A stretch of 64,000 nucleotides of DNA from Shinella zoogloeoides (GTDB lineage Bacteria; Pseudomonadota; Alphaproteobacteria; Rhizobiales; Rhizobiaceae), in assembly GCF_033705735.1 (NCBI RefSeq), contig NZ_CP131130.1, positions 995,001-1,059,000 on the forward strand, read 5' to 3'. Numbering within the stretch: position 1 is the stretch's first letter; each line of letters opens with the position of its first letter. The notes below the pieces were generated by a model, which saw nothing but the letters and a program-made list of their open reading frames with translations, did not search any database and was not told the DNA's origin. This document shows positions 1,032-58,483 of the stretch, one piece after another. The translations under genes were made by a program, and so were the position numbers.

Positions 1032-1798
1032 TTCCGTTGTCCTCTGCTGCCGCATCCTGTCGTTGAAAACAGGGCGCAATTAACCCCGTCCGGCCGCAAT
1101 GCCCTTGCAGCCAGCCCCGATCTTCCAATCCTTGCGGGAAACCCGATCGATCTCGGATGTCCTGTATCTTGTGCTGAGTTTGGCTGCAAACACTAAATAT
1201 AGTATTAACAGATAGTTTATTCCAGACCCTGCGGGCGCGAAGGCGCATCAAAAAACCGGGCGCAAAAGCACCCTTGCGGTGAGCGGATCATCCGCCCCGC
1301 CGCATGCGCAGGAAACGCGATTTCGTGATGGGAACCGACCTCGTAACTTTACGGTCCAGTCGCCGCCGCAACTTGGAATTCATTAACCTCATCAGCCCGA
1401 TTCTCGTCAAGGGCTGGTTTGTGAATGAAGTTTGAACTCTATATCTTGTGCCTGTGGGCTGTGGAAAATGGGGACATCGCGCAAGGCCTGAAAAATCAGC
1501 AGGTTCCGGCCGAAAGGTGAGGCGGCGTGACATGCCTCTGTGGAAAAGCAAAAAAAATCATGGGTGAAAAGAAGGGATTTTTCGACATCCCGACATCAGG
1601 GAATAGTCATCCCCGAAGAGTTGTGATCCGTGGATAAAGTGATTCTCCCTGCCGTCAACCCGACTCGCCGGCGGCCCTTTTTAGCGGCCGCGATGCTGCG
1701 GCTTCCCGGGCGGAAACGCCCGGAAAACGGCTGGAAAAGGCGAGGACTCTGGCGCGAAAGAAACGCCGGCGCACAGGGCAGGCGAGACGCCGCCGCTA
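1032..1798. other. 767-bp intergenic region between gpt and nrdJ
   Basis: No convincing protein-coding gene was found here; the short frames lack good ribosome binding sites. It holds the NrdR-like sites described separately and a 7-bp GC stem with a GAAA tetraloop (1706-1723), which may end the gpt transcript. It also has three sequences resembling degenerate DnaA boxes (TGTGGAAAA near 1460 and 1540, CGTGGATAA near 1630). A long leader or a small RNA for nrdJ cannot be excluded. Confidence 0.5.
1159..1205 (-). promoter_or_regulatory. Tandem NrdR-box-like sites upstream of nrdJ
   Basis: ACACTAAATATAGTAT at 1190-1205 differs from the pattern ACACTATATATAGTGT at two positions. A weaker copy, GTCCTGTATCTTGTGC, lies at 1159-1174. 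The centres are 31 bp apart, three helical turns, which is the usual spacing of paired NrdR boxes in front of ribonucleotide reductase genes. A third similar 16-mer is at 1436-1451. The sites lie 128-174 bp upstream of the nrdJ start. Function as NrdR operators is inferred. Confidence 0.6.
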
Positions 1799-2296
1799 TC
1801 AGCCGCGGCTGCCCTTGGCGATCGGCTCCTGGTAGGTGAAGCCCATGTCCCAGGGGAAATAGATCCAGGTGTCCTGGCTGACTTCGGTGACGAAGGTGTC
1901 GACCAGCGGACGGCCCTTGGGCTTGGCGTAGACGGCGGCGAAATGCGCTTTCGGCAGCATGGCGCGGACCTGCGCGGCGGTCTTGCCGGTATCCGTCAGG
2001 TCGTCGACGATGAGGATGCCTTCGCCGCCCTGCTCGGTGAGCTCCGGCGAGATTCCCTTGAGGACGTGCATGTCGCCCTGCGAGACATAATCGTGGTAGG
2101 AGGCGACGCAGACCGTCTCGATCAGGCGGATGTTCAGTTCGCGCGAGATGACCGCCGCCGGCACGAGGCCGCCGCGGGTGATGCAGACGATCGCCTTCCA
2201 TTCGCGGTCTCCGTCCGCCAGCCGCCAGGCGAGCGCGCGCGCGTCGCGGTGAAACTGATCCCAGGAAACGGGGAAGGCTTTGTCGGGCAGCGACAT
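1799..2296 (-). CDS. gpt: Xanthine-guanine phosphoribosyltransferase
   Basis: Purine salvage enzyme that converts guanine, xanthine and hypoxanthine plus PRPP to the nucleotide. The 165-residue length is normal for the XGPRT family. The PRPP-binding motif [13 protein letters not shown] is at residues 94-106 and the RGG loop at 41-43. The protein has no signal peptide and should be cytoplasmic or peripheral to the inner membrane. It is a single gene between nrdJ and a universal stress gene, all on the minus strand but separated by more than 100 bp. Confidence 0.92.
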
Positions 2297-2410
2297 GACG
2301 GGCTCCTGATAGGCGGAAAAAAAGAAGATTCCTTCTCTCTAATGCAAGTCGCCGCTCAAGGAAATCGCCGCCCGGCCATGCAGGCCGGGCGATCCACAGC
2401 CAAGTCCGCC

Positions 2411-3253
2411 TCAGCGGGACATCAGCACCGGCACGCGGGCGTGGCGCATCATGGCGCTGGTGACGCCGCCGAAGAGGCGCTGGCGCAGCCGCGAATGGCT
2501 GTAGGCGCCCATGACGATGAGGCCCGCGCCGATCTCCGTCGCACGGTGGTTGACGGTCTCGGCGACGGAATGCCGCTCCGATCCGCGCGAGGCGACGGTG
2601 GTCTTGATGCCGTGCCGGGCGAGCGTCGCCGCAAGTTCGGCGCCGCAGAACTCGCGCGACTGCATGGAGTTCTCCGGCGGATCGACGGTGAAGATCTCGA
2701 CCTCCTTCGCCGCCGTCAGGAAGGGCAGGGCGTCGAAGGCGGCGCGCGCCGATTCCTTCGAGCCGTTCCAGGCGAGCAGCACCCGGTCGATCGGTTCGGG
2801 GCCGGCCGGCGCATTGGAGACGAGATAGACCGGGCGGCCGCTCTCGTAGAGCAGGTCCTCGATATCCTCCTGCGCCGGGCCGTCGGCGTCCGGGTCGAAC
2901 TGCCCGGCGATGACGATGTCGGCGCCGCGCGCGCTGTCGATGACGCCGGCCGAGGCATAGCCGGCGGTGCCGGTGAAGAGGCGCCATTCATAGGAGATGT
3001 CATCGCGCTCGCAGCGCGAGCGGAAGGCCTGCTCGACCTCGCGCGATTGCCGGCGGGCGCGTTCCTGCAGGTCGAGGACGGCGCTCGGATCGGGATATTC
3101 CATGGGCGCGATCAACGTGACCACGACCGGCGATTCCGCGTGAATGCCGACGACATGCCCGCCGGTGCGGCGCGCGAGCGCGAGCGCGTGGTCCGTCACC
3201 TTGCCGGCATCCTCCGCGGCGCTCAGCACCGCCACGATGGTCTTGTAGCTCAT
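2411..3253 (-). CDS. Universal stress protein, tandem UspA domains
   Basis: 280-residue protein of the UspA superfamily with two domains in tandem (roughly residues 1-145 and 150-280). The C-terminal half ends in the Usp pattern GAYSHSRLRQRLFGG...TSAMM...VPVL, whose glycines form the ATP-binding loop. I chose the ATG at 3253 because MSYKTIVAVL is the standard Usp beginning and the upstream codons look non-coding. Role is in stress tolerance by family; the specific signal is unknown. Confidence 0.88.
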   Translation of the reverse strand: MSYKTIVAVLSAAEDAGKVTDHALALARRTGGHVVGIHAESPVVVTLIAPMEYPDPSAVLDLQERARRQSREVEQAFRSRCERDDISYEWRLFTGTAGYASAGVIDSARGADIVIAGQFDPDADGPAQEDIEDLLYESGRPVYLVSNAPAGPEPIDRVLLAWNGSKESARAAFDALPFLTAAKEVEIFTVDPPENSMQSREFCGAELAATLARHGIKTTVASRGSERHSVAETVNHRATEIGAGLIVMGAYSHSRLRQRLFGGVTSAMMRHARVPVLMSR

Positions 3254-3312
3254 TTCGGCCTCCTGTCTGGTCCACACTTGCGCCTGCCGAAACGCCACAA
3301 CCTTGATCGGGA

Positions 3313-4068
3313 TCAAACGCCCGCCTTGGCCGCGGCGATTTCTGCAATCATCGCAAGTATATCACGTTCGGCCGCAAGCGCCGGAGATTCCTCGCGGCTG
3401 CGGATGACGATTTCCGTCGAGAAGCGGTTTTCCGAAAAGCGCGGATAGGAGCCGATGCTGGTCTCCGGATGGTTCTTCTGGATCTCGGCGAGCGCGCTGC
3501 CGATATCTCCCTCGCCGAAGGGCGAGGCGACGGAACGCTGGAGCATGGGCCGCCCGCCCTCGAGCTTCGGCACGACGGTGCCGAGCATCGCGGTGAAGAC
3601 CTGCGGCACGCCCGCCATCACATAGACATTGCCGATATGGAAGCCCGGCGCCGTGGAAACGGCATTCTCGATATGGACGGAGCCCTCGGGCATGCGCGCC
3701 ATGCGCTTGCGGGCCTCGTTGAACTCGACGCCGCGCCGCGCATACATCGCGCCGAGCAGCTCCATCGCCAGCGGATCGTGCAGGCACGGCACGCCGAACG
3801 CCTTGGAGACGGCGTCCGCGGTGATGTCGTCATGGGTCGGGCCGATGCCGCCGGAGGTGAAGACATAGGTATGGCGGGCGCGCAGCGCATTCAGCGCCTC
3901 GACGATCGCGTCTTCGTCGTCGCCGACGATGCGCACTTCCTTGAGGTCGATGCCGGCGAGGAAGAGCATGTCGGCGAGCTGGCCGATATTCTTGTCCTTG
4001 GTGCGCCCGGAAAGGAGTTCGTCGCCGATGGCGAGCATGGCGGCGGTGGCGGCGGGGCTGGAACTCAT
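3313..4068 (-). CDS. CinA/MoaB-type molybdopterin-binding domain protein
   Basis: 251-residue protein of the competence/damage-inducible CinA N-terminal (MoCF_biosynth) family. The family hallmark AIGDELLSGRTKDKN is near residue 12 and TSGGIGPTHDDIT near residue 70. The C-terminal nicotinamide-nucleotide amidase domain of full CinA is absent, as in many alphaproteobacterial paralogues. Start ATG at 4068; an internal ATG at residue 11 is an alternative. The substrate in vivo is uncertain. It is divergent from wrbA. Confidence 0.85.
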   Translation of the reverse strand: MSSSPAATAAMLAIGDELLSGRTKDKNIGQLADMLFLAGIDLKEVRIVGDDEDAIVEALNALRARHTYVFTSGGIGPTHDDITADAVSKAFGVPCLHDPLAMELLGAMYARRGVEFNEARKRMARMPEGSVHIENAVSTAPGFHIGNVYVMAGVPQVFTAMLGTVVPKLEGGRPMLQRSVASPFGEGDIGSALAEIQKNHPETSIGSYPRFSENRFSTEIVIRSREESPALAAERDILAMIAEIAAAKAGV

Positions 4069-51685: not shown

Positions 51686-52410
51686 GCGTGTTCGTCGGAC
51701 TGGATGTCGCCACCACTACTGGAGCTACGACCTACGCCGGCGGGCGCTACGTCGCGAGCACCTTCACTGCCGCCGCACCATACAAGCAGAAGAGCAAGAA
51801 GGAGCGTGTCGAGGAAGCGCTCGGCATGAAGGTGTCTGCGCTCGATGCAACCCTCACCGGCGCCGTGCTCGCCGACTTCGAGCGACGCCTGTGGATCTAC
51901 CTTGCCGATGTCACGGAGCGCTACGGTCCGATCTCTGCCGTCGCCATCGAGAAGCCGCTGGTTCCCAACCATGAACGCACGCGGACAGTCGTCGACACGT
52001 CGAGTGAGTGGGCCGGCAAGGCAATCCGCAAAGAGAAAGTGGCCGGCACCAACGAGTCCACGATTCATCGGCTCAACGCACTTGCTTCCACGGCGGCCAA
52101 GGTGTGCGCGGTCCTGAACATCCCTTGCGAGTACATCGACCAGACCACATGGCGGAAGGACTTCCTCGGCAACGGCCGACCAGGTCCAAGCGACGTCTGC
52201 AAGAAGCTGGCAGTCAAGGTGTGCCGGTCGATGGGCATTGAGGTTCCGAATGCAGACGCCGCGGAAAGCGTGGGCATCTGCTTCAGCCTCGTCCTCAAGA
52301 AGAATCCCTATGGCGGCCGAGCGAACGACCTGTTCGCCCGTAAGCCGCTGCCGGCGACGCCCAAGCAAGAAGAGGCGCGCGAGGCGGCCGAAGCCCTATT
52401 CCGGAAGTGA
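51682..52410 (+). CDS. RuvC-like Holliday junction resolvase (phage type)
   Basis: 242 residues from a GTG at 51682. RNase H-fold landmarks in order: VGLDVATTTG (D8), AVAIEKPLVPNHE (E in the second acidic position), TTWRKDFLGNGRPGPSD, and IEVPNADAAESVGICFSLVL, which supplies the last acidic residues. The order is that of phage RuvC-like resolvases. Position beside recombination and replication genes supports the call. Confidence 0.8.
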   Translation: MSVFVGLDVATTTGATTYAGGRYVASTFTAAAPYKQKSKKERVEEALGMKVSALDATLTGAVLADFERRLWIYLADVTERYGPISAVAIEKPLVPNHERTRTVVDTSSEWAGKAIRKEKVAGTNESTIHRLNALASTAAKVCAVLNIPCEYIDQTTWRKDFLGNGRPGPSDVCKKLAVKVCRSMGIEVPNADAAESVGICFSLVLKKNPYGGRANDLFARKPLPATPKQEEAREAAEALFRK

Positions 52411-53024
52411 GAATTTGCATGCGCCTTCTATGGCAAGCCATGACGACTGACGAGAGGATCGCGGTTGTCACGAAGTATGCGCTCGAAGGTCTCTCGGCAG
52501 CGAAAATTGCCGCGATGATCGAGGGCGCCACGCGGAACAGCGTGATTGGGGTCGTGCATCGCAATAAAATCTTGCTCGGCCGGGCGCCGTCTTTGCCGCG
52601 CGTAGCCATGACCACGGCCGCGCCGAGACAGCCGGAGGACGGTAACGTCGTGCCTCTTCCGAAGCCAAAGCCCAAACGCCCATCAGCGAAGCCACCGTCG
52701 GGCATAGCAGAGGTCATTCAGTTGCCGGCCAGAAAGCCGGCGCCGAAGAAGAAGAAGAAGAGAAAGGCTGGCGCCGGCGTCAGCATCATGGACCTCGGGC
52801 GAAGCACTTGTCGCGGACCACTCAACGAGAACTACCGACGGATTCCTCCAGCGCAAATGCTGTTCTGCGGAAAGCCTACCAGGCCAGACAGTTCCTGGTG
52901 CGAGGAATGCGCATCGATCTACGTGACAGGTCGCATCGGGACACCGCGGACGGTCGATAAGGATGGAACACCCCTCGCGCCGTCGACGAGGAAGAGGAAG
53001 CCCTTCTACCGATGGCGAAACTGA
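52407..53024 (+). CDS. GcrA-family cell cycle regulator (phage copy)
   Basis: 205 residues from a GTG at 52407 coupled by GTGA; an internal ATG at 52440 (MTTDERIAVV) is the alternative and closer to cellular GcrA. The GcrA N-terminal HTH TTDERIAVVTKYALEGLSAAKIAAMI...RNSVIGVVHRNKILLGR is present. The C-terminal sigma70-contacting domain DLGRSTCRGPL...MLFCGKPTRPDSSWCEECASIYV retains the C and FCG/WC pattern. A proline/lysine-rich linker lies between. GcrA activates methylated GANTC promoters with RNA polymerase. Confidence 0.85.
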   Translation: MRICMRLLWQAMTTDERIAVVTKYALEGLSAAKIAAMIEGATRNSVIGVVHRNKILLGRAPSLPRVAMTTAAPRQPEDGNVVPLPKPKPKRPSAKPPSGIAEVIQLPARKPAPKKKKKRKAGAGVSIMDLGRSTCRGPLNENYRRIPPAQMLFCGKPTRPDSSWCEECASIYVTGRIGTPRTVDKDGTPLAPSTRKRKPFYRWRN

Positions 53025-53401
53025 CGGATTTCCCGCCGTCTGAAGTCGCCATGTCGATCCAATCGATCGTGGACAGGTCGAAGCTCAAATTCGGCGGTCA
53101 TGCCGGCTTTCTCTTCATGGAACTGACCTTGGATCACGCCCGGATGTTCTGGGCGGCCAGCAAGCATCTCGAGTTCCTCTCCGATTGGGGAGTCGGGATC
53201 GAGACCACCCGATACAGCCTCGAGGAGTGCCGGGTCTTCATCGACGAATTGATCAAGACGGTCCGCAGCTCTCTCCGCGTGAGGCTGGACTTCGAGGAGC
53301 TGATGCTCCTCCGCGACGCAGCCACTCACATCGACCGGCTGTCGATCATGCAGACAACGAAGCCGCCAAGCAAACGGCGGAACGGAGGCAAAAAGACGTG
53401 A
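53012..53401 (+). CDS. Hypothetical phage protein
   Basis: 129 residues, starting inside the end of the gcrA-like gene (13-bp overlap) and ending in a GTGA overlap with the cytosine methyltransferase. Central SRYSLEECRVFIDELIKTVRSSLRVRLDFEELMLLRDAATHI-like helices (approximate) and a basic tail. No family recognised. Confidence 0.62.
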   Translation: MAKLTDFPPSEVAMSIQSIVDRSKLKFGGHAGFLFMELTLDHARMFWAASKHLEFLSDWGVGIETTRYSLEECRVFIDELIKTVRSSLRVRLDFEELMLLRDAATHIDRLSIMQTTKPPSKRRNGGKKT

Positions 53402-55665
53402 TAATTTCCGGCGCATTGAAGGAGGTGGAGTTCACCCATTTTCACCTCTTCTGCGGGCTCGGCGCCGCGGCAAAGGGCATGAACAAGGGTAGGGCGCGTG
53501 TGGGAAATCTGCGCGCCAAGTTTCGTTGCTTGGGCGGGGTCGACAACGATCCGGCGGCGATCAACGACTTCTCACGCCTGGCCGGCGTGCCCGGCACGCT
53601 GCTCGACATGTTCGACGAGGATCAATACCGTTCCTTCCACGATGCCGAACCTCCGCGCGGCTGGCGGCCCGCAACTCCGGCAGACATCCAGCGGGCAGCG
53701 CATCACGAGTTCCCCGACATCGTGTTTCTCAGCGCCCCCTGCAAGGGCTTCTCCGGTCTCCTACCGGAATCGTCGTCGAAGACCGCGAAGTACCAGGCTC
53801 TCAACCGCCTCACCCTTCGGGGCGTCTGGCTCATGCTGGAAGCCTTCAAGGACAAGCCCCCGAAGCTGATCATTTTCGAGAACGTGCCGCGTATCGCGAC
53901 GCGTGGCCGCGGCCTGCTCGACCAGATCGTCGCCTTGCTCCGCAGCTATGGCTATGCCGTTGCTGAGACGACGCACGACTGCGGCGAGCTCGGCGGCCTC
54001 GGCCAGTCCCGCAAGCGCTTCCTGCTCGTCGCCCGACACGAGGAGACGGTACCTCCGTTCCTCTACGAGCCGGAGAAGCGCCGCCTCCGCGGCGTCGGTG
54101 AAGTCCTCGACAAGCTCCCTATGCCGGGCGATCCGCGCGGCGGCCCGCTGCACCGCATTCCCGCGCTTCAGTGGAAGACATGGGTACGGCTGGCATTCGT
54201 TGAGGCCGGTGCTGACTGGCGCTCGCTGAACAAGCTCGCAGTCGAGGACGGGGTGTTGCGCGACTTCGGAATCCTGCCAATCGGCGGCTGGCGCGATACG
54301 GCTATCGCCGTTCCCGATGTTCGCACTGCAAGCACCCGGGAGGGCACCGGCTACCTCGGCGTGAACGCTTGGGACGAGAACATGGGCGTCATTTCCGGAA
54401 ACGGGAGGCCGGGAGCAGGCGCATATAGCGTGGCCGACCCGCGCCCACCCGAGGGAAGCCTCGAATATCACCAATATGGCGTCAGAGAGTGGGGCGAGCC
54501 CAGCGGCGCGGTGATCAACGTGAAATCGCCTGGCCAGGGCACGTTTTCCGTTGCCGATCCCCGGATGGAGGGCAAGCCCCGCTTCAATAACGTCTACCGC
54601 GTCGTGCCGTGGGTCGAGAACGCGCCGGCCGTCGCCGGTCCTGGCGGCCCGGCCGGCGGCCTCGCCGTTGCCGACCCGCGCCCGGCGCCGCGCGACGATT
54701 ACAAGCAGACCAAGTATCGTGTCACCGCGTTCGACGAGGCCGCCGGCACGGTCATCGCCGCATCGACGACGGGTAACGGTGCCTATGCGGTCGCTGATCC
54801 GCGCCCGGCTCGCGAACTGCACAAGGGCACGCATGGCGTTCGCGATTGGATGGAGCCGTCAGGCACAGTCCAAGGTGAAAGTCTACCTTCCAACGGAGCC
54901 TTCGCCGTAGCGGATCCGCGCACGGAATGGAGCGAGCACACCCACAGCAACAAGCTCGCCGTGACCGACTGGACCGAGCCCGGCACCACGGTCACCGGAT
55001 CGCGTTTCGGATCGGGCGCCGGCGCGGTAGCCGATCCCCGGCCTGGATATGGGGAAGGCGCCCATCAAAACATCCTGGCCGTCACTGATTGGGACGGGGC
55101 GTCCAAGACCGTCACGGGCGCACGCCATGTCGCCGGCGGCGCGCTCAGCGTCGCGGACCCTCGGCCGGTCGGGCTCAACGCCAATCGCGAGCACTATAAA
55201 TCCGGAGGCCACTATGGGGTGGTGCCTTGGGATGAGAATTCGGGCGCGGTGCCGGCGTTCGGGAAATACGACAGAGGCGCTTGGTCCGTTGCCGATCCCC
55301 GCGGTGGCGAAGGTGATGTCGCCGAGAGCCTTCCCCAGTCCAGCGACCGACTCGTCGCGGTGATCCGCGCGCTGGACGGGACGTGGCACCGGCCTTTCAC
55401 CACGCTGGAGCTTGCCGCGCTGCAAAGCCTCGTCGATCCGGAGGAGGTTTTTACGCTCTATGGCCAGTCCGATTCCGCTTGGCGCGAGCGCATCGGCAAC
55501 GCCGTGCCGCCGGATGCGGCAGAGGCGATCGCCGGCGTCATGGGCACAACTCTGTTGCTCGCCATGACGGGGCAGACCTTCATGTTGAGCAGCCAGCCGA
55601 TTTGGGTTCAGCCGATCGCCATGGCGCTGGCTGTCGATCAGAGGGGGAACATTCCCCATGAGTGA
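53398..55665 (+). CDS. Cytosine-C5 DNA methyltransferase with eight-fold VADPR repeat insertion
   Basis: 755 residues from a GTG at 53398. Motif I is HLFCGLGAAAKG (16-27); motif IV PCKGFS with catalytic C115; motif VI ENV 161-163; motif VIII QSRKRF 203-208; motif X GNAVPP 700-705, so the catalytic core is complete. Between VIII and X, where the target recognition domain belongs, lie eight imperfect ~40-residue units, each ending in (S/A)VADPR: R-box starts at residues 345, 385, 424, 465, 504, 544, 585 and 631. Each unit has a W-x-E-x-x-G-T/A-V pattern. This makes the protein about twice the usual length. Confidence 0.93.
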   Translation: MIISGALKEVEFTHFHLFCGLGAAAKGMNKGRARVGNLRAKFRCLGGVDNDPAAINDFSRLAGVPGTLLDMFDEDQYRSFHDAEPPRGWRPATPADIQRAAHHEFPDIVFLSAPCKGFSGLLPESSSKTAKYQALNRLTLRGVWLMLEAFKDKPPKLIIFENVPRIATRGRGLLDQIVALLRSYGYAVAETTHDCGELGGLGQSRKRFLLVARHEETVPPFLYEPEKRRLRGVGEVLDKLPMPGDPRGGPLHRIPALQWKTWVRLAFVEAGADWRSLNKLAVEDGVLRDFGILPIGGWRDTAIAVPDVRTASTREGTGYLGVNAWDENMGVISGNGRPGAGAYSVADPRPPEGSLEYHQYGVREWGEPSGAVINVKSPGQGTFSVADPRMEGKPRFNNVYRVVPWVENAPAVAGPGGPAGGLAVADPRPAPRDDYKQTKYRVTAFDEAAGTVIAASTTGNGAYAVADPRPARELHKGTHGVRDWMEPSGTVQGESLPSNGAFAVADPRTEWSEHTHSNKLAVTDWTEPGTTVTGSRFGSGAGAVADPRPGYGEGAHQNILAVTDWDGASKTVTGARHVAGGALSVADPRPVGLNANREHYKSGGHYGVVPWDENSGAVPAFGKYDRGAWSVADPRGGEGDVAESLPQSSDRLVAVIRALDGTWHRPFTTLELAALQSLVDPEEVFTLYGQSDSAWRERIGNAVPPDAAEAIAGVMGTTLLLAMTGQTFMLSSQPIWVQPIAMALAVDQRGNIPHE
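54340..55320 (+). repeat. Eight tandem imperfect ~120-bp coding repeats
   Basis: Region of the cytosine methyltransferase gene that codes the VADPR units. Spacing of the VADPR codons is 39-41 residues for six intervals and 46 for the last. The DNA copies are diverged at third positions, so they are old duplications kept by selection on protein. Confidence 0.85.
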
Positions 55666-56008
55666 CCTTCAGAACATCCTGCGGCTGCTGAGATCGCGCC
55701 GTTTCTCGTTGACGGATGAGAAGAAGCTGCAGGCCGAGATTGAGGAAGTGCTGACCGCCGCCGGCGTCGATCACAAGCGAGAGCATCGCTTGGACGCTGG
55801 CTCCATCATCGACTTCATGATCGGGGCCACCGGAGTCGAGGTGAAGATCAAGGGCTCGAAGCTCAACATCTTCAGGCAACTCGAGCGGTATGCCGAGTTC
55901 GATGCGGTGGAATGCCTGGTCCTCGTCAGCAACGTCCCCACGGGAATGCCGGAACACATCGATGGCAAGCCCGTCCATCTCGTAAATCTTGCAAAGGCTT
56001 GGCTTTGA
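55658..56008 (+). CDS. Small PD-(D/E)XK nuclease-like protein
   Basis: 116 residues. The pattern HRLDAGSIIDFMIGATGVEVKIKGSKLNIFRQLERYAEFDAVECLVLVS shows the D ... E-x-K catalytic core and the following Q-x3-Y helix of small PD-(D/E)XK nucleases. It overlaps the methyltransferase by 8 bp and the next gene by 1 bp (TGATG). Could be a nicking or resolving enzyme, possibly specific for modified or unmodified DNA. Confidence 0.68.
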   Translation: MSDLQNILRLLRSRRFSLTDEKKLQAEIEEVLTAAGVDHKREHRLDAGSIIDFMIGATGVEVKIKGSKLNIFRQLERYAEFDAVECLVLVSNVPTGMPEHIDGKPVHLVNLAKAWL

Positions 56009-57219
56009 TGAAGCAACCGACGCTCTTCGAGGGATCGAAGCGGCTGGTCTATGACGAGGCCGCCGAGATGACGCTGCAGTCGATGCAGGCGTATGGCCCA
56101 GCTCATGACCACTGGGTGTTCGCTTTTTCTGGCGGAAAAGACAGCACGGCAACGCTGACCGTGATCATGCATCTGATCGATGCGGGCCGATTGATGGCCC
56201 CCAAGACCATCACCGTCCTCTATGCGGACACGCGAATGGAGCTGCCGCCTCTGGCAATCGCAGCGGCAAAGCTCCTCGACCGGCTTCGCGCGAGAGGGAT
56301 TCATTGCGAGACCGTCTGCGCGCCGCTCGACCAACGCTTTCTCGTCTACATGCTCGGGCGAGGGGTGCCACCGCCGAACAACAACACATTCCGCTGGTGC
56401 ACCCGACAGATCAAGGTCGACCCGATGACGGTCGCCCTTGAGCGCCGGATCGGTGAGCTTCATGGCTCTATCCTCATGATCACGGGCGTTCGACAAGGGG
56501 AAAGCGCCATTCGCGACGGTCGGATTGCGATGTCCTGTGGCAAGGATGGCGCCGAGTGCGGGCAGGGCTGGTATCAGCAAGTCGTTCCGCAGGCGGCCGG
56601 AATTCGAGGGAAGATTGCGACGCTCGCACCACTTCTTCACTGGCGAGTTTGCAACGTGTTCGACTGGCTGAAAATCTACGCCAGGATGCCCGAGTACGGG
56701 GCATGGGATACCGGCGCCGTCGTCGATGCCTATGGAGGAGACGAGGCCCAGGAAATCAATGCGCGGACCGGCTGCAACGGCTGTCCGCTCGCATCGCGAG
56801 ATCTTGGCCTCGAGACCGTGCTCCGTGTTCCATATTGGTCCTACATCGCGCCTCTCCTCGGCCTCAAGCCGCTATATCGTGAACTCCGTGAGCCGCGACA
56901 CCGTCTGAAAAAGACTGGCATCGACGCCAACGGCGAAATCGCTACCGCCAAGAACAAGCAGCGGATGGGGCCACTCACATTCGAGGCCCGCCTCATGGCC
57001 TTGGACCGCGTGCTGTCCATCCAGGAACAGATCAACGCCGACGCCCTGTGTCTGGGCCGGCCGGCAGTCGACATCCTGAATGCAGAGGAAGAGACCCGGA
57101 TCCGCGAACTAATCGATCTCGAGACATGGCCGAACGGCTGGGAGGGGGATGAGCCGACGGCCGATACCCCGATGGACACGATCTACGCCGATGGCTCGAT
57201 CCAGCCATTGTTCATCTGA
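56008..57219 (+). CDS. PAPS-reductase-fold (DndC-like) protein
   Basis: 403 residues. The ATP-pyrophosphatase loop SGGKDS is at 41-46. C131 in RWCTRQIK, C177, C184 and the CNGC pair (256/259) supply cysteines for a 4Fe-4S cluster, as in DndC and phage PAPS-reductase-like proteins. DndC works in DNA phosphorothioation; simple PAPS reductases act in sulfate assimilation. The extra C-terminal ~150 residues and phage context favour a DNA or tRNA thiolation-type role, not proven. Confidence 0.78.
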   Translation: MKQPTLFEGSKRLVYDEAAEMTLQSMQAYGPAHDHWVFAFSGGKDSTATLTVIMHLIDAGRLMAPKTITVLYADTRMELPPLAIAAAKLLDRLRARGIHCETVCAPLDQRFLVYMLGRGVPPPNNNTFRWCTRQIKVDPMTVALERRIGELHGSILMITGVRQGESAIRDGRIAMSCGKDGAECGQGWYQQVVPQAAGIRGKIATLAPLLHWRVCNVFDWLKIYARMPEYGAWDTGAVVDAYGGDEAQEINARTGCNGCPLASRDLGLETVLRVPYWSYIAPLLGLKPLYRELREPRHRLKKTGIDANGEIATAKNKQRMGPLTFEARLMALDRVLSIQEQINADALCLGRPAVDILNAEEETRIRELIDLETWPNGWEGDEPTADTPMDTIYADGSIQPLFI

Positions 57220-57251: not shown

Positions 57252-57743
57252 ATGCTGATGCAATATCGTTCCGATCGACAGATCGTTGAATCCCTTCTTC
57301 CCGTTCGCCTATGGGCGACTGTCATCGCCGAAGGCATCGACCAGCCGGATAGCGAGGACGCCCGCACCCTTCTGACCTGTCTGGCTCACGCGCAGGAAGA
57401 GGTCGTCGCCGGCCTGAGCCCGCGTAAAGCCGAAGCGATAGTCCGGCGGGCGCGTCGCGCCGTCGAGATCGCCAAGGAGCCTTTTGTGGAGGCAAAGGCT
57501 GCCGTGGCCAAGTTCGGCCTCTGCGTCTTCTATTTCCTCGATTGCCTTCGGAAGAACGGCGCCTTCGGCCTCGTAGATGGTAGCCCGCTGGATAGTGCCG
57601 TGACAGCGATCCTCGCGCCTGAAGGAACGCTCACAGAGTTCGCGAATATCCCGAAAGTGGATGCTTCCGCCCAGAAGCAGGCGCGCCACATGCTTACGGC
57701 GCTGCAGCGCGAAGGCTACTTTGCTCAGGTGGTCTGGGCATGA
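57252..57743 (+). CDS. Hypothetical phage protein
   Basis: 163 residues. Helical, with AEAIVRRARRAVEIAKEPFVEAKAAVAKFGLCVFYFLDCLRK as its core and a C-terminal winged-helix-like part (ARHMLTALQREGYFAQVVW). ATGA overlap with the adenine methyltransferase. No family recognised. Confidence 0.6.
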   Translation: MLMQYRSDRQIVESLLPVRLWATVIAEGIDQPDSEDARTLLTCLAHAQEEVVAGLSPRKAEAIVRRARRAVEIAKEPFVEAKAAVAKFGLCVFYFLDCLRKNGAFGLVDGSPLDSAVTAILAPEGTLTEFANIPKVDASAQKQARHMLTALQREGYFAQVVWA

Positions 57744-58483
57744 CCGGGAACCTGTTTGCGGGAATGGGTGGCCATCACGGCGCGCGATCGACAACCGACG
57801 TTTGGCTCACCCCGCCGGCGATCATCGAAGCGCTTGGTGGGCCGGAATCCTTCGACCTAGACCCATGCAGCCTCGCAGGCCGGCCATGGCCGACGGCCCG
57901 CGTACACTTCACGCCAGCCGACAATGGTTTGCTGCTGCCTTGGGACGGTCGAGTATGGCTCAACCCACCTTACAGCACGCATCTCATCCGACGTTTTATG
58001 GCACGGATGGCGGATCATGGCCGGGGCGTCGCGCTCATTTTCGCCAGAACTGAAACGGATCACTTTCAACGGTTCGTGTTCGGCGCGGCGTCGGCGGTCT
58101 TGTTTCTCGCCGGCCGGATCAACTTCCATCTTCCGGACGGTCGAAGAGCTTCGAAGAATGGGGGCGCTCCGTCGGCACTCGTGGCCTATGGCGAGGATGA
58201 TCGGGATATCTTGGCGCATGCGCCGATTGCGGGGGCGTTTGTGGCGCTGCGCCTTCCCACCTCGGTGCTCGTAGGCGCGCTGTCGGAAACCTGGGCCCAA
58301 GCCCTCCGCACGTTCTTCGAGCGGAACCCCGAGCAGGTGAGCCTGCAGGAACTCTATCGAGCCTTCAGCAACCATCCCAAGACGCGGGCCAACGCCCATT
58401 GGAGGGACAAGCTGCGCCAGGTCTTGCAGCGCGGCAACTACGAGCGCGTCGAACGCGGTGTTTGGAGGAGGCTGTCGGTTTGA
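57740..58483 (+). CDS. Phage N6-adenine methyltransferase (Dam/DNA_N-6-adenine MTase family)
   Basis: 247 residues. The catalytic NPPY is at 75-78 (RVWLNPPYSTHLIRRFM), preceded by TPPAIIEALGGPESFDLDPCS, the family start, and TETDHFQRFVFG. The C-terminal ~75 residues form an extra helical part with a possible HTH (SLQELYRAFSNHPKTRANAHWRDKLRQVLQ). It methylates adenine in DNA; recognition sequence unknown. Start ATGA-coupled; downstream SNF2-like gene begins right after. Confidence 0.88.
   Translation: MTGNLFAGMGGHHGARSTTDVWLTPPAIIEALGGPESFDLDPCSLAGRPWPTARVHFTPADNGLLLPWDGRVWLNPPYSTHLIRRFMARMADHGRGVALIFARTETDHFQRFVFGAASAVLFLAGRINFHLPDGRRASKNGGAPSALVAYGEDDRDILAHAPIAGAFVALRLPTSVLVGALSETWAQALRTFFERNPEQVSLQELYRAFSNHPKTRANAHWRDKLRQVLQRGNYERVERGVWRRLSV

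Follow-up and report, generated by a model that had tools for sequence, protein, structure and literature searches.

A prophage-borne cytosine methyltransferase of Shinella zoogloeoides with a putative array of eight tandem target-recognition domains

Multispecific C5-cytosine methyltransferases are known from temperate phages of Bacillus: MtbP of SPbeta and phi3T, and the enzymes of SPR, H2 and phiBssHII. In SPbeta MtbP two tandem TL-type cores, of the pattern described below for the Shinella protein, can be picked out by eye (RVYSPEGLSPTLTT... and RRFKENGEPAFTVNT...), and the other multispecific Bacillus phage methyltransferases carry three to five target-recognition domains (TRDs). In the accessible portion of a review, the arraying of several TRDs in one polypeptide is presented as a means by which Bacillus temperate phages protect against many systems (PMC12707154), and tandem TRDs are described likewise in the accessible portion of PMC8936443. 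The multispecific principle is already known from these phages; the family described here has longer arrays of cassettes.

The locus described lies in a window of 64,000 nucleotides of Shinella zoogloeoides (NZ_CP131130.1, 995,001 to 1,059,000), whose numbering is used below. An uninterrupted frame at 53398-55665 (+) specifies a protein of 755 residues. Its GTG start shares bases with the stop codon of the ORF before it (53012-53401) and stands at the alignment column where the protein of phage PBC5 starts; an alternative in-frame TTG at 53185 would allow a longer methyltransferase frame. ORFs are also present on the opposite strand, as predicted frames only. An earlier note on this DNA had claimed core motifs I, IV, VI, VIII and X, and all are there in the expected order, together with motif IX. 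Named by inspection, these are motif I (HLFCGLGAA, residues 16-24), motif IV with its PC (SAPCKGFSG, 112-120), motif VI with its ENV (FENVPR, 160-165), motif VIII of QxRxR type (QSRKRF, 203-208), motif IX (RPFTTLELAALQ, 665-676) and motif X (RIGNAVPPDAAEA, 698-710). Pfam family PF00145 matches the protein in two stretches (E=1.9e-16), and the match to TIGR00675 falls under the cut-off (48.2 vs 100.65 bits). Judged by its core motifs and the PF00145 match, and in line with its database relatives, the product is a C5-cytosine methyltransferase, with a catalytic core of motifs I-VIII in residues 1-316 (53398-54345, +) and a C-terminus bearing motifs IX-X in residues 636-755 plus stop (55303-55665, +).

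Between motifs VIII and IX, in residues 317-635, lie eight units ending in VADPR. The same note had described eight such units of about 40 residues, and so it proved: the VADPR ends fall at residues 349, 389, 428, 469, 508, 548, 589 and 635, a spacing of 40, 39, 41, 39, 40, 41 and 46 residues, the 46 preceding the last unit. As delimited by VADPR spacing, a unit HMM and clustering, the units on the + strand are unit 1 (class G, residues 317-349, 54346-54444), unit 2 (class D, 350-389, 54445-54564), unit 3 (class E, 390-428, 54565-54681), unit 4 (class B, 429-469, 54682-54804), unit 5 (class C, 470-508, 54805-54921), unit 6 (class O, 509-548, 54922-55041), unit 7 (class F, 549-589, 55042-55164) and unit 8 (class A, normally the final one, 590-635, 55165-55302), giving the class order G-D-E-B-C-O-F-A. 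The HMM, of 34 columns, was seeded with these eight units and re-estimated on 1626; it scores them at 39-55 bits. Since they score so and since each of 246 homologues has 4-11 units, the array is not a chance repeat. Nor is it a recent tandem repeat at the DNA level: Tandem Repeats Finder run on the DNA did not detect it, so the copies have diverged.

The structure prediction that the earlier note had called for gave a fold for the core but none for the array. AlphaFold2 folds the core of a relative (P0111) as a class I methyltransferase like M.HhaI, M.HaeIII and DNMT1, at 17-21% identity to M.HhaI and M.HaeIII over aligned residues; the array, in the two proteins modelled (alignments of 45 and 63 rows), came out at pLDDT of about 25-48, with no confident fold, and the motif IX region of the window protein is likewise of low confidence. 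A sequence search of the PDB returned no match for the window protein (E<=0.1) or for a 12-row family profile (E<=0.01).

Like the Bacillus enzymes exemplified by MtbP of SPbeta and phi3T, the window protein is a temperate-phage C5-methyltransferase with a single core and, in the stretch from motif VIII to motif IX, what appear to be tandem TRD cores. Single-TRD enzymes such as M.HhaI and M.HaeIII have one TRD, against the eight putative ones here. The best PHROG of the window protein is phrog_32684, over the core. The window protein (P0001; E=5e-53) and SPbeta MtbP (E=6.7e-85) also share phrog_116, which each matches over nearly its whole length; as the array is an insertion relative to that profile, the match supports relationship of the cores only. 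The window family differs from SPbeta MtbP in having 4-11 units per protein rather than two, a shared framework ending in VADPR, a fixed pitch of about 40 residues, and often A or V in place of the TL threonine. Open-access literature, covered mostly as titles and abstract beginnings with few subscription papers, yielded no account of the family, its 4-11-unit array, the VADPR framework or a catalogue of exchanged classes; the string VADPR brought up only irrelevant papers among the matches listed, and the accessible part of PMC12429752 holds nothing on a cytosine enzyme.

The enzyme is one of a large family of (pro)phage proteins with a patchy distribution. A database search related 7041 of 7999 scored candidates to it at E<=0.001, and the 246 relatives examined, all retrieved because they resembled queries that have the array, have it too, which tempers the earlier note's description of the region as unusual. 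Of 38 matching phage records, 32 align over 80% or more of the query; they are from Sinorhizobium PBC5, mainly Pseudomonas phages (Hollowayvirus, Citexvirus and others), Marinobacter PS3 and Achromobacter CF418P1. Two cyanophage records are among the six weaker matches. Relatives are encoded at 310 loci in genome contigs (the best 80 were used) and at no fewer than 576 in viral contigs (again the best 80, plus 13 from a first scan). In an even sample of 289 genomes of the class to which the window belongs, two match at E<=1e-50, the window's own included. With the window's own copy excluded beforehand, 180 loci were fetched, of which 147 were usable, the other 33 having no one open frame that contained the two anchor motifs; joined to the best 120 of the 7041 database relatives they made 267 sequences, or 246 unique ones once 21 exact duplicates were removed. 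The unit HMM found 1651 units in these 246 proteins. Removal of 110 at core identity of 85% or more left a non-redundant set of 136 (56 database proteins, 42 genome loci, 35 viral loci and three phage records). One member, P0058 of Mesorhizobium sp. L-8-10 (1129 residues), has a LAGLIDADG homing-endonuclease domain (PF14528) ahead of the array, possibly an intein; in Pseudomonas phage PA8 a remnant (3225-4022 of locus L019) keeps about four units and the C-terminus in a frame devoid of the catalytic core.

Over the 246 proteins the units share the framework columns V7, W10, V17, G26 and V30-A-D-P-R34, and vary most in columns 2-4, 8-9, 11-13, 18, 20-25 and 27-28. The recognition loops of M.HhaI are placed at residues 233-240 and 252-258 in the accessible text of PMC4090504. 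In a by-eye alignment, unit columns 2-23 run without gaps along M.HhaI 236-257, columns 16-17 falling on T250-L251, and an R present in 28% of units falls, with the V or I that follows it, on R240-I241. At the first position of the TL motif 38% of units have T, 43% A and 13% V, and at the second 99% have V or I. The 921 units of the 136 proteins fall into recurrent classes, 18 of which comprise 819 units; the remaining 102, in small classes, were excluded from the entropy analysis. Class information reaches 1 bit in 16 columns (2-6, 8, 15, 18, 20-25, 27 and 28), of which 11 (2-6, 18, 20-24) map to the M.HhaI recognition loops and five (8, 15, 25, 27, 28) lie outside them; column 19, though in a loop, has no more than 0.7 bits, and linker columns 9-14 have 0.3-0.56. 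The six trimer columns average 1.79 bits vs 0.98 for random columns, and 0.2% of random sets score as high, in a register good to about one residue, since shifts of -1 and +1 give a similar 1.92 and 1.72 bits.

The classes had been defined on columns overlapping those analysed, and the entropy analysis was therefore redone with classes drawn from separate columns, each fraction being the information in the clustered subset over the entropy of all 921 units. When columns 2-8 alone define the classes, these account for 43-56% of the entropy in columns 20-25 and 6-13% in columns 11-14; classes from columns 18-28 explain 48-65% in columns 2-6 and 11-18% in columns 11-14; columns 15-16 are intermediate (31-46%). 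The two loop segments covary by class and the linker does not. Sequence matches between unit and canonical TRD are individually weak: when the unit profile was compared with 35 other C5-methyltransferase sequences, L201 alone scored above the highest of 105 shuffles, and in an hmmsearch against 11 C5-methyltransferases from outside the family six gave a reported stretch, at best scores of -4.8 to 2.3 bits, and five none. The commonest C-TL trimer of each class equals none of those published for GGCC (GRQ), GCGC (RHG) and CGCG (HHG), so that targets cannot be read off.

Reasoning from sequence, we put at roughly 0.8 the probability that the window protein is a prophage-encoded multispecific C5-cytosine methyltransferase. 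In such an enzyme a single catalytic core (motifs I-VIII, IX and X) would serve eight alternative tandem TRDs. Each unit of about 40 residues would be a complete TRD core, in which the framework (V7, W10, V17, G26, VADPR30-34) holds out two variable loops (columns 2-6 and columns 18-25) to contact the bases 5' and 3' of the cytosine to be methylated. For a given site a single unit would dock in the recognition cleft, the others being idle and looped out. Such one-at-a-time docking would give as many targets as there are active units, each unit we infer to be active having a target of its own, and the enzyme would methylate the union of several short motifs; phage DNA so methylated would, we propose, resist several restriction enzymes. 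The repertoire of units would turn over through cassette exchange.

The order of units bears on the number that work. Class A is the last unit in 130 of the 136 non-redundant proteins, where it adjoins motif IX, and the 46-residue spacing usually precedes it. It might accordingly be asked whether one unit only, probably this last one, is a working TRD, the enzyme having one target at a time and the other units being relics or a reservoir for recombination. We consider this improbable, although it fares best among the alternatives, for inner classes keep their loop residues across very different hosts, as silent units should not: the class B trimer is STT in 103 of 121 units and that of class I DRV in 26 of 30. 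It is in class A itself that the trimer is more variable, the commonest, ACH, being found in 19 of 134 units.

Within a protein, units avoid resembling one another. Of the 2838 pairs of units from one protein, only eight are 60% or more identical over columns 5-29, and none reaches 70%; free permutation of units predicts 134 and 52 such pairs, and permutation that preserves position 80 and 32.5. In 500 permutations the count of similar pairs never fell as low as that observed, and 1000 free permutations agree. The gap is weaker at 50% identity or more (60 pairs observed, 244 expected freely and 152 with position kept), and for none of the 921 units is the nearest neighbour in its own protein. 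The avoidance is strong, not absolute, as classes recur 27 times inside a protein, in 26 of the 136 proteins, with 23 of the 27 in class C. Recombination between like repeats, deleting similar units, could add to the depletion, above all at high identity. Regular modules of about 40 residues with two variable segments might also be expected of a TALE- or PUF-like array, whose units would jointly read one long target at one or a few bases each. Such a base-per-repeat code would reuse its modules, and homogenised scaffold repeats would show the reverse of the avoidance just described; the TALE-like trait of a few module types used many times per protein is absent from the family, and the number of units ranges from 4 to 11. 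This reading is less probable still than a single working unit.

Units are exchangeable as wholes in nature. Among pairs with core identity of 85-99.5%, measured only on the portion ahead of the array, 376 of 418 show the replacement (less than 50% identity), gain or loss of one or more whole units, and at core identity of 90% or more 75 of 97 do so; the pairs share proteins and hence are not independent. Many members come from metagenome contigs, so some of these could be assembly chimeras. The DNA of three pairs, picked from the listed examples of exchange with DNA available, showed whole-unit differences as in the proteins in every case: two Asticcacaulis loci (L056/L066) are 91.6% identical in the core, 60-64% in units 1-3, 89-91% in units 4-5 and 91% in the C-terminus; two from Comamonas (L090/L093, the latter a metagenome assembly) are 65% identical in unit 4 and 85-91% in the remaining segments; and two viral contigs (L118/L124) are 94% identical in the core, 53-61% in units 1-3 and 95-99% in units 4-7. 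An array that served as a structural or oligomerisation scaffold, or as a DNA-mimicking decoy, with no role in target choice would fit the want of a confident fold or DNA-contact model, but it would leave unexplained the exchange of whole units between near-identical cores, the class-specific variation in two recognition-loop segments, and the avoidance among units whose classes recur over distant hosts; we think it very unlikely.

Together the TRD position, the recognition-loop pattern, the non-redundancy within a protein and the cassette exchange indicate that the units are probably tandem TRDs. They favour the earlier suggestion of modular recognition as in multispecific phage methyltransferases; multimerisation, offered beside it, found no support. 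If the multispecific reading holds, one short polypeptide gathers recognition elements that would otherwise take as many as eleven methyltransferases, and temperate phages of Proteobacteria could escape numerous restriction systems together. Natural exchanges, with the same core and one unit different, would then link a module of about 40 residues to a DNA motif ready-made. Only tentatively, at somewhat less than even odds, would we go on to suggest that some 20 recurrent TRD classes are traded among proteobacterial phages, 4-11 per enzyme, that the window enzyme methylates at least six unrelated motifs with its one active site, and that the loops will be readable as a code once methylomes are mapped. 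We know of no characterised methyltransferase with more than about five motifs.

A second array-bearing group was reached from a cytosine methyltransferase with a repeat array in a same-genus genome (G007; 1432-3537 of locus L214), which matches 235 phage records at E<=1e-5; in 103 the match extends over 80% or more of the query. The group includes RR1-A, phi2LM21_p23, ARM81mr_p29 and ARM81ld_p31. Its members, too, are (pro)phage enzymes with a core and an array, at the same place, of cores of DxPxxTVTA type, but their repeat is a different one (DEPxxTITA...LVAPxL), of about 33-39 residues where cleanly split, and they lack the VADPR array; BLASTP of P0001 against five members gave no match better than E=0.13. 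Two P. aminophilus proteins, JCM7686_0772 and _2655, are reported as relatives, with 44% identity to phi2LM21_p23 according to the accessible part of PMC5537653, where phi2LM21_p23 itself is said to give no protection in E. coli. The two P. aminophilus enzymes are reported to protect broadly, at many different sites. Relatives in this group are described, in what is accessible of PMC3925955 and PMC5537653, as relaxed or as modifying cytosine in CC, which might suggest for the window enzyme a broadly relaxed specificity (CC or CN, for example) that arose as the recognition domain loosened and was diluted by the repeats with no discrete added targets, a reading that we rate very low, partial protection of several discrete sites being equally expected from a set of TRDs and loop conservation in most classes favouring defined contacts. 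Were the multispecific reading true, the 'relaxed specificity' of the second group might itself be a sum of discrete specificities.

The surroundings of the window gene are prophage-like, a scan of some ORFs having found antirepressor, RecT, exonuclease VIII, DNA polymerase exonuclease, primase and helicase families. For ten genes next to it in the window, the number of the 180 loci with a match lies between 1 and 8 (E<=1e-5, within the flanks available), so no partner gene can be named. A protein of 116 residues that overlaps the methyltransferase end (55658-56008, +) belongs to a phage family with no assigned function (phrog_5928, E=5.5e-35); it has no Pfam match at E<=0.001, and a nuclease-like D...EVKIKG pattern can be seen in it by eye. 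Near the methyltransferase lies also a gene of the PAPS-reductase family (55912-57219, +; phrog_12882, E=1.1e-215). In Rhizobium phage RR1-A a PAPS-reductase gene stands directly 3' of the second-group array methyltransferase (L222), and such genes are listed among matches in Escherichia phages Flotzy and Eeyore. A phage-borne homologue of GcrA, which in Alphaproteobacteria is a regulator responsive to GANTC methylation, is encoded at 52407-53024 (+; PF07750, E=3.2e-18), and a few genes away, at 57740-58483, is a Dam-type adenine methyltransferase (PF05869, E=3.3e-11); a methylation-based takeover of host cell-cycle control by these two is possible.
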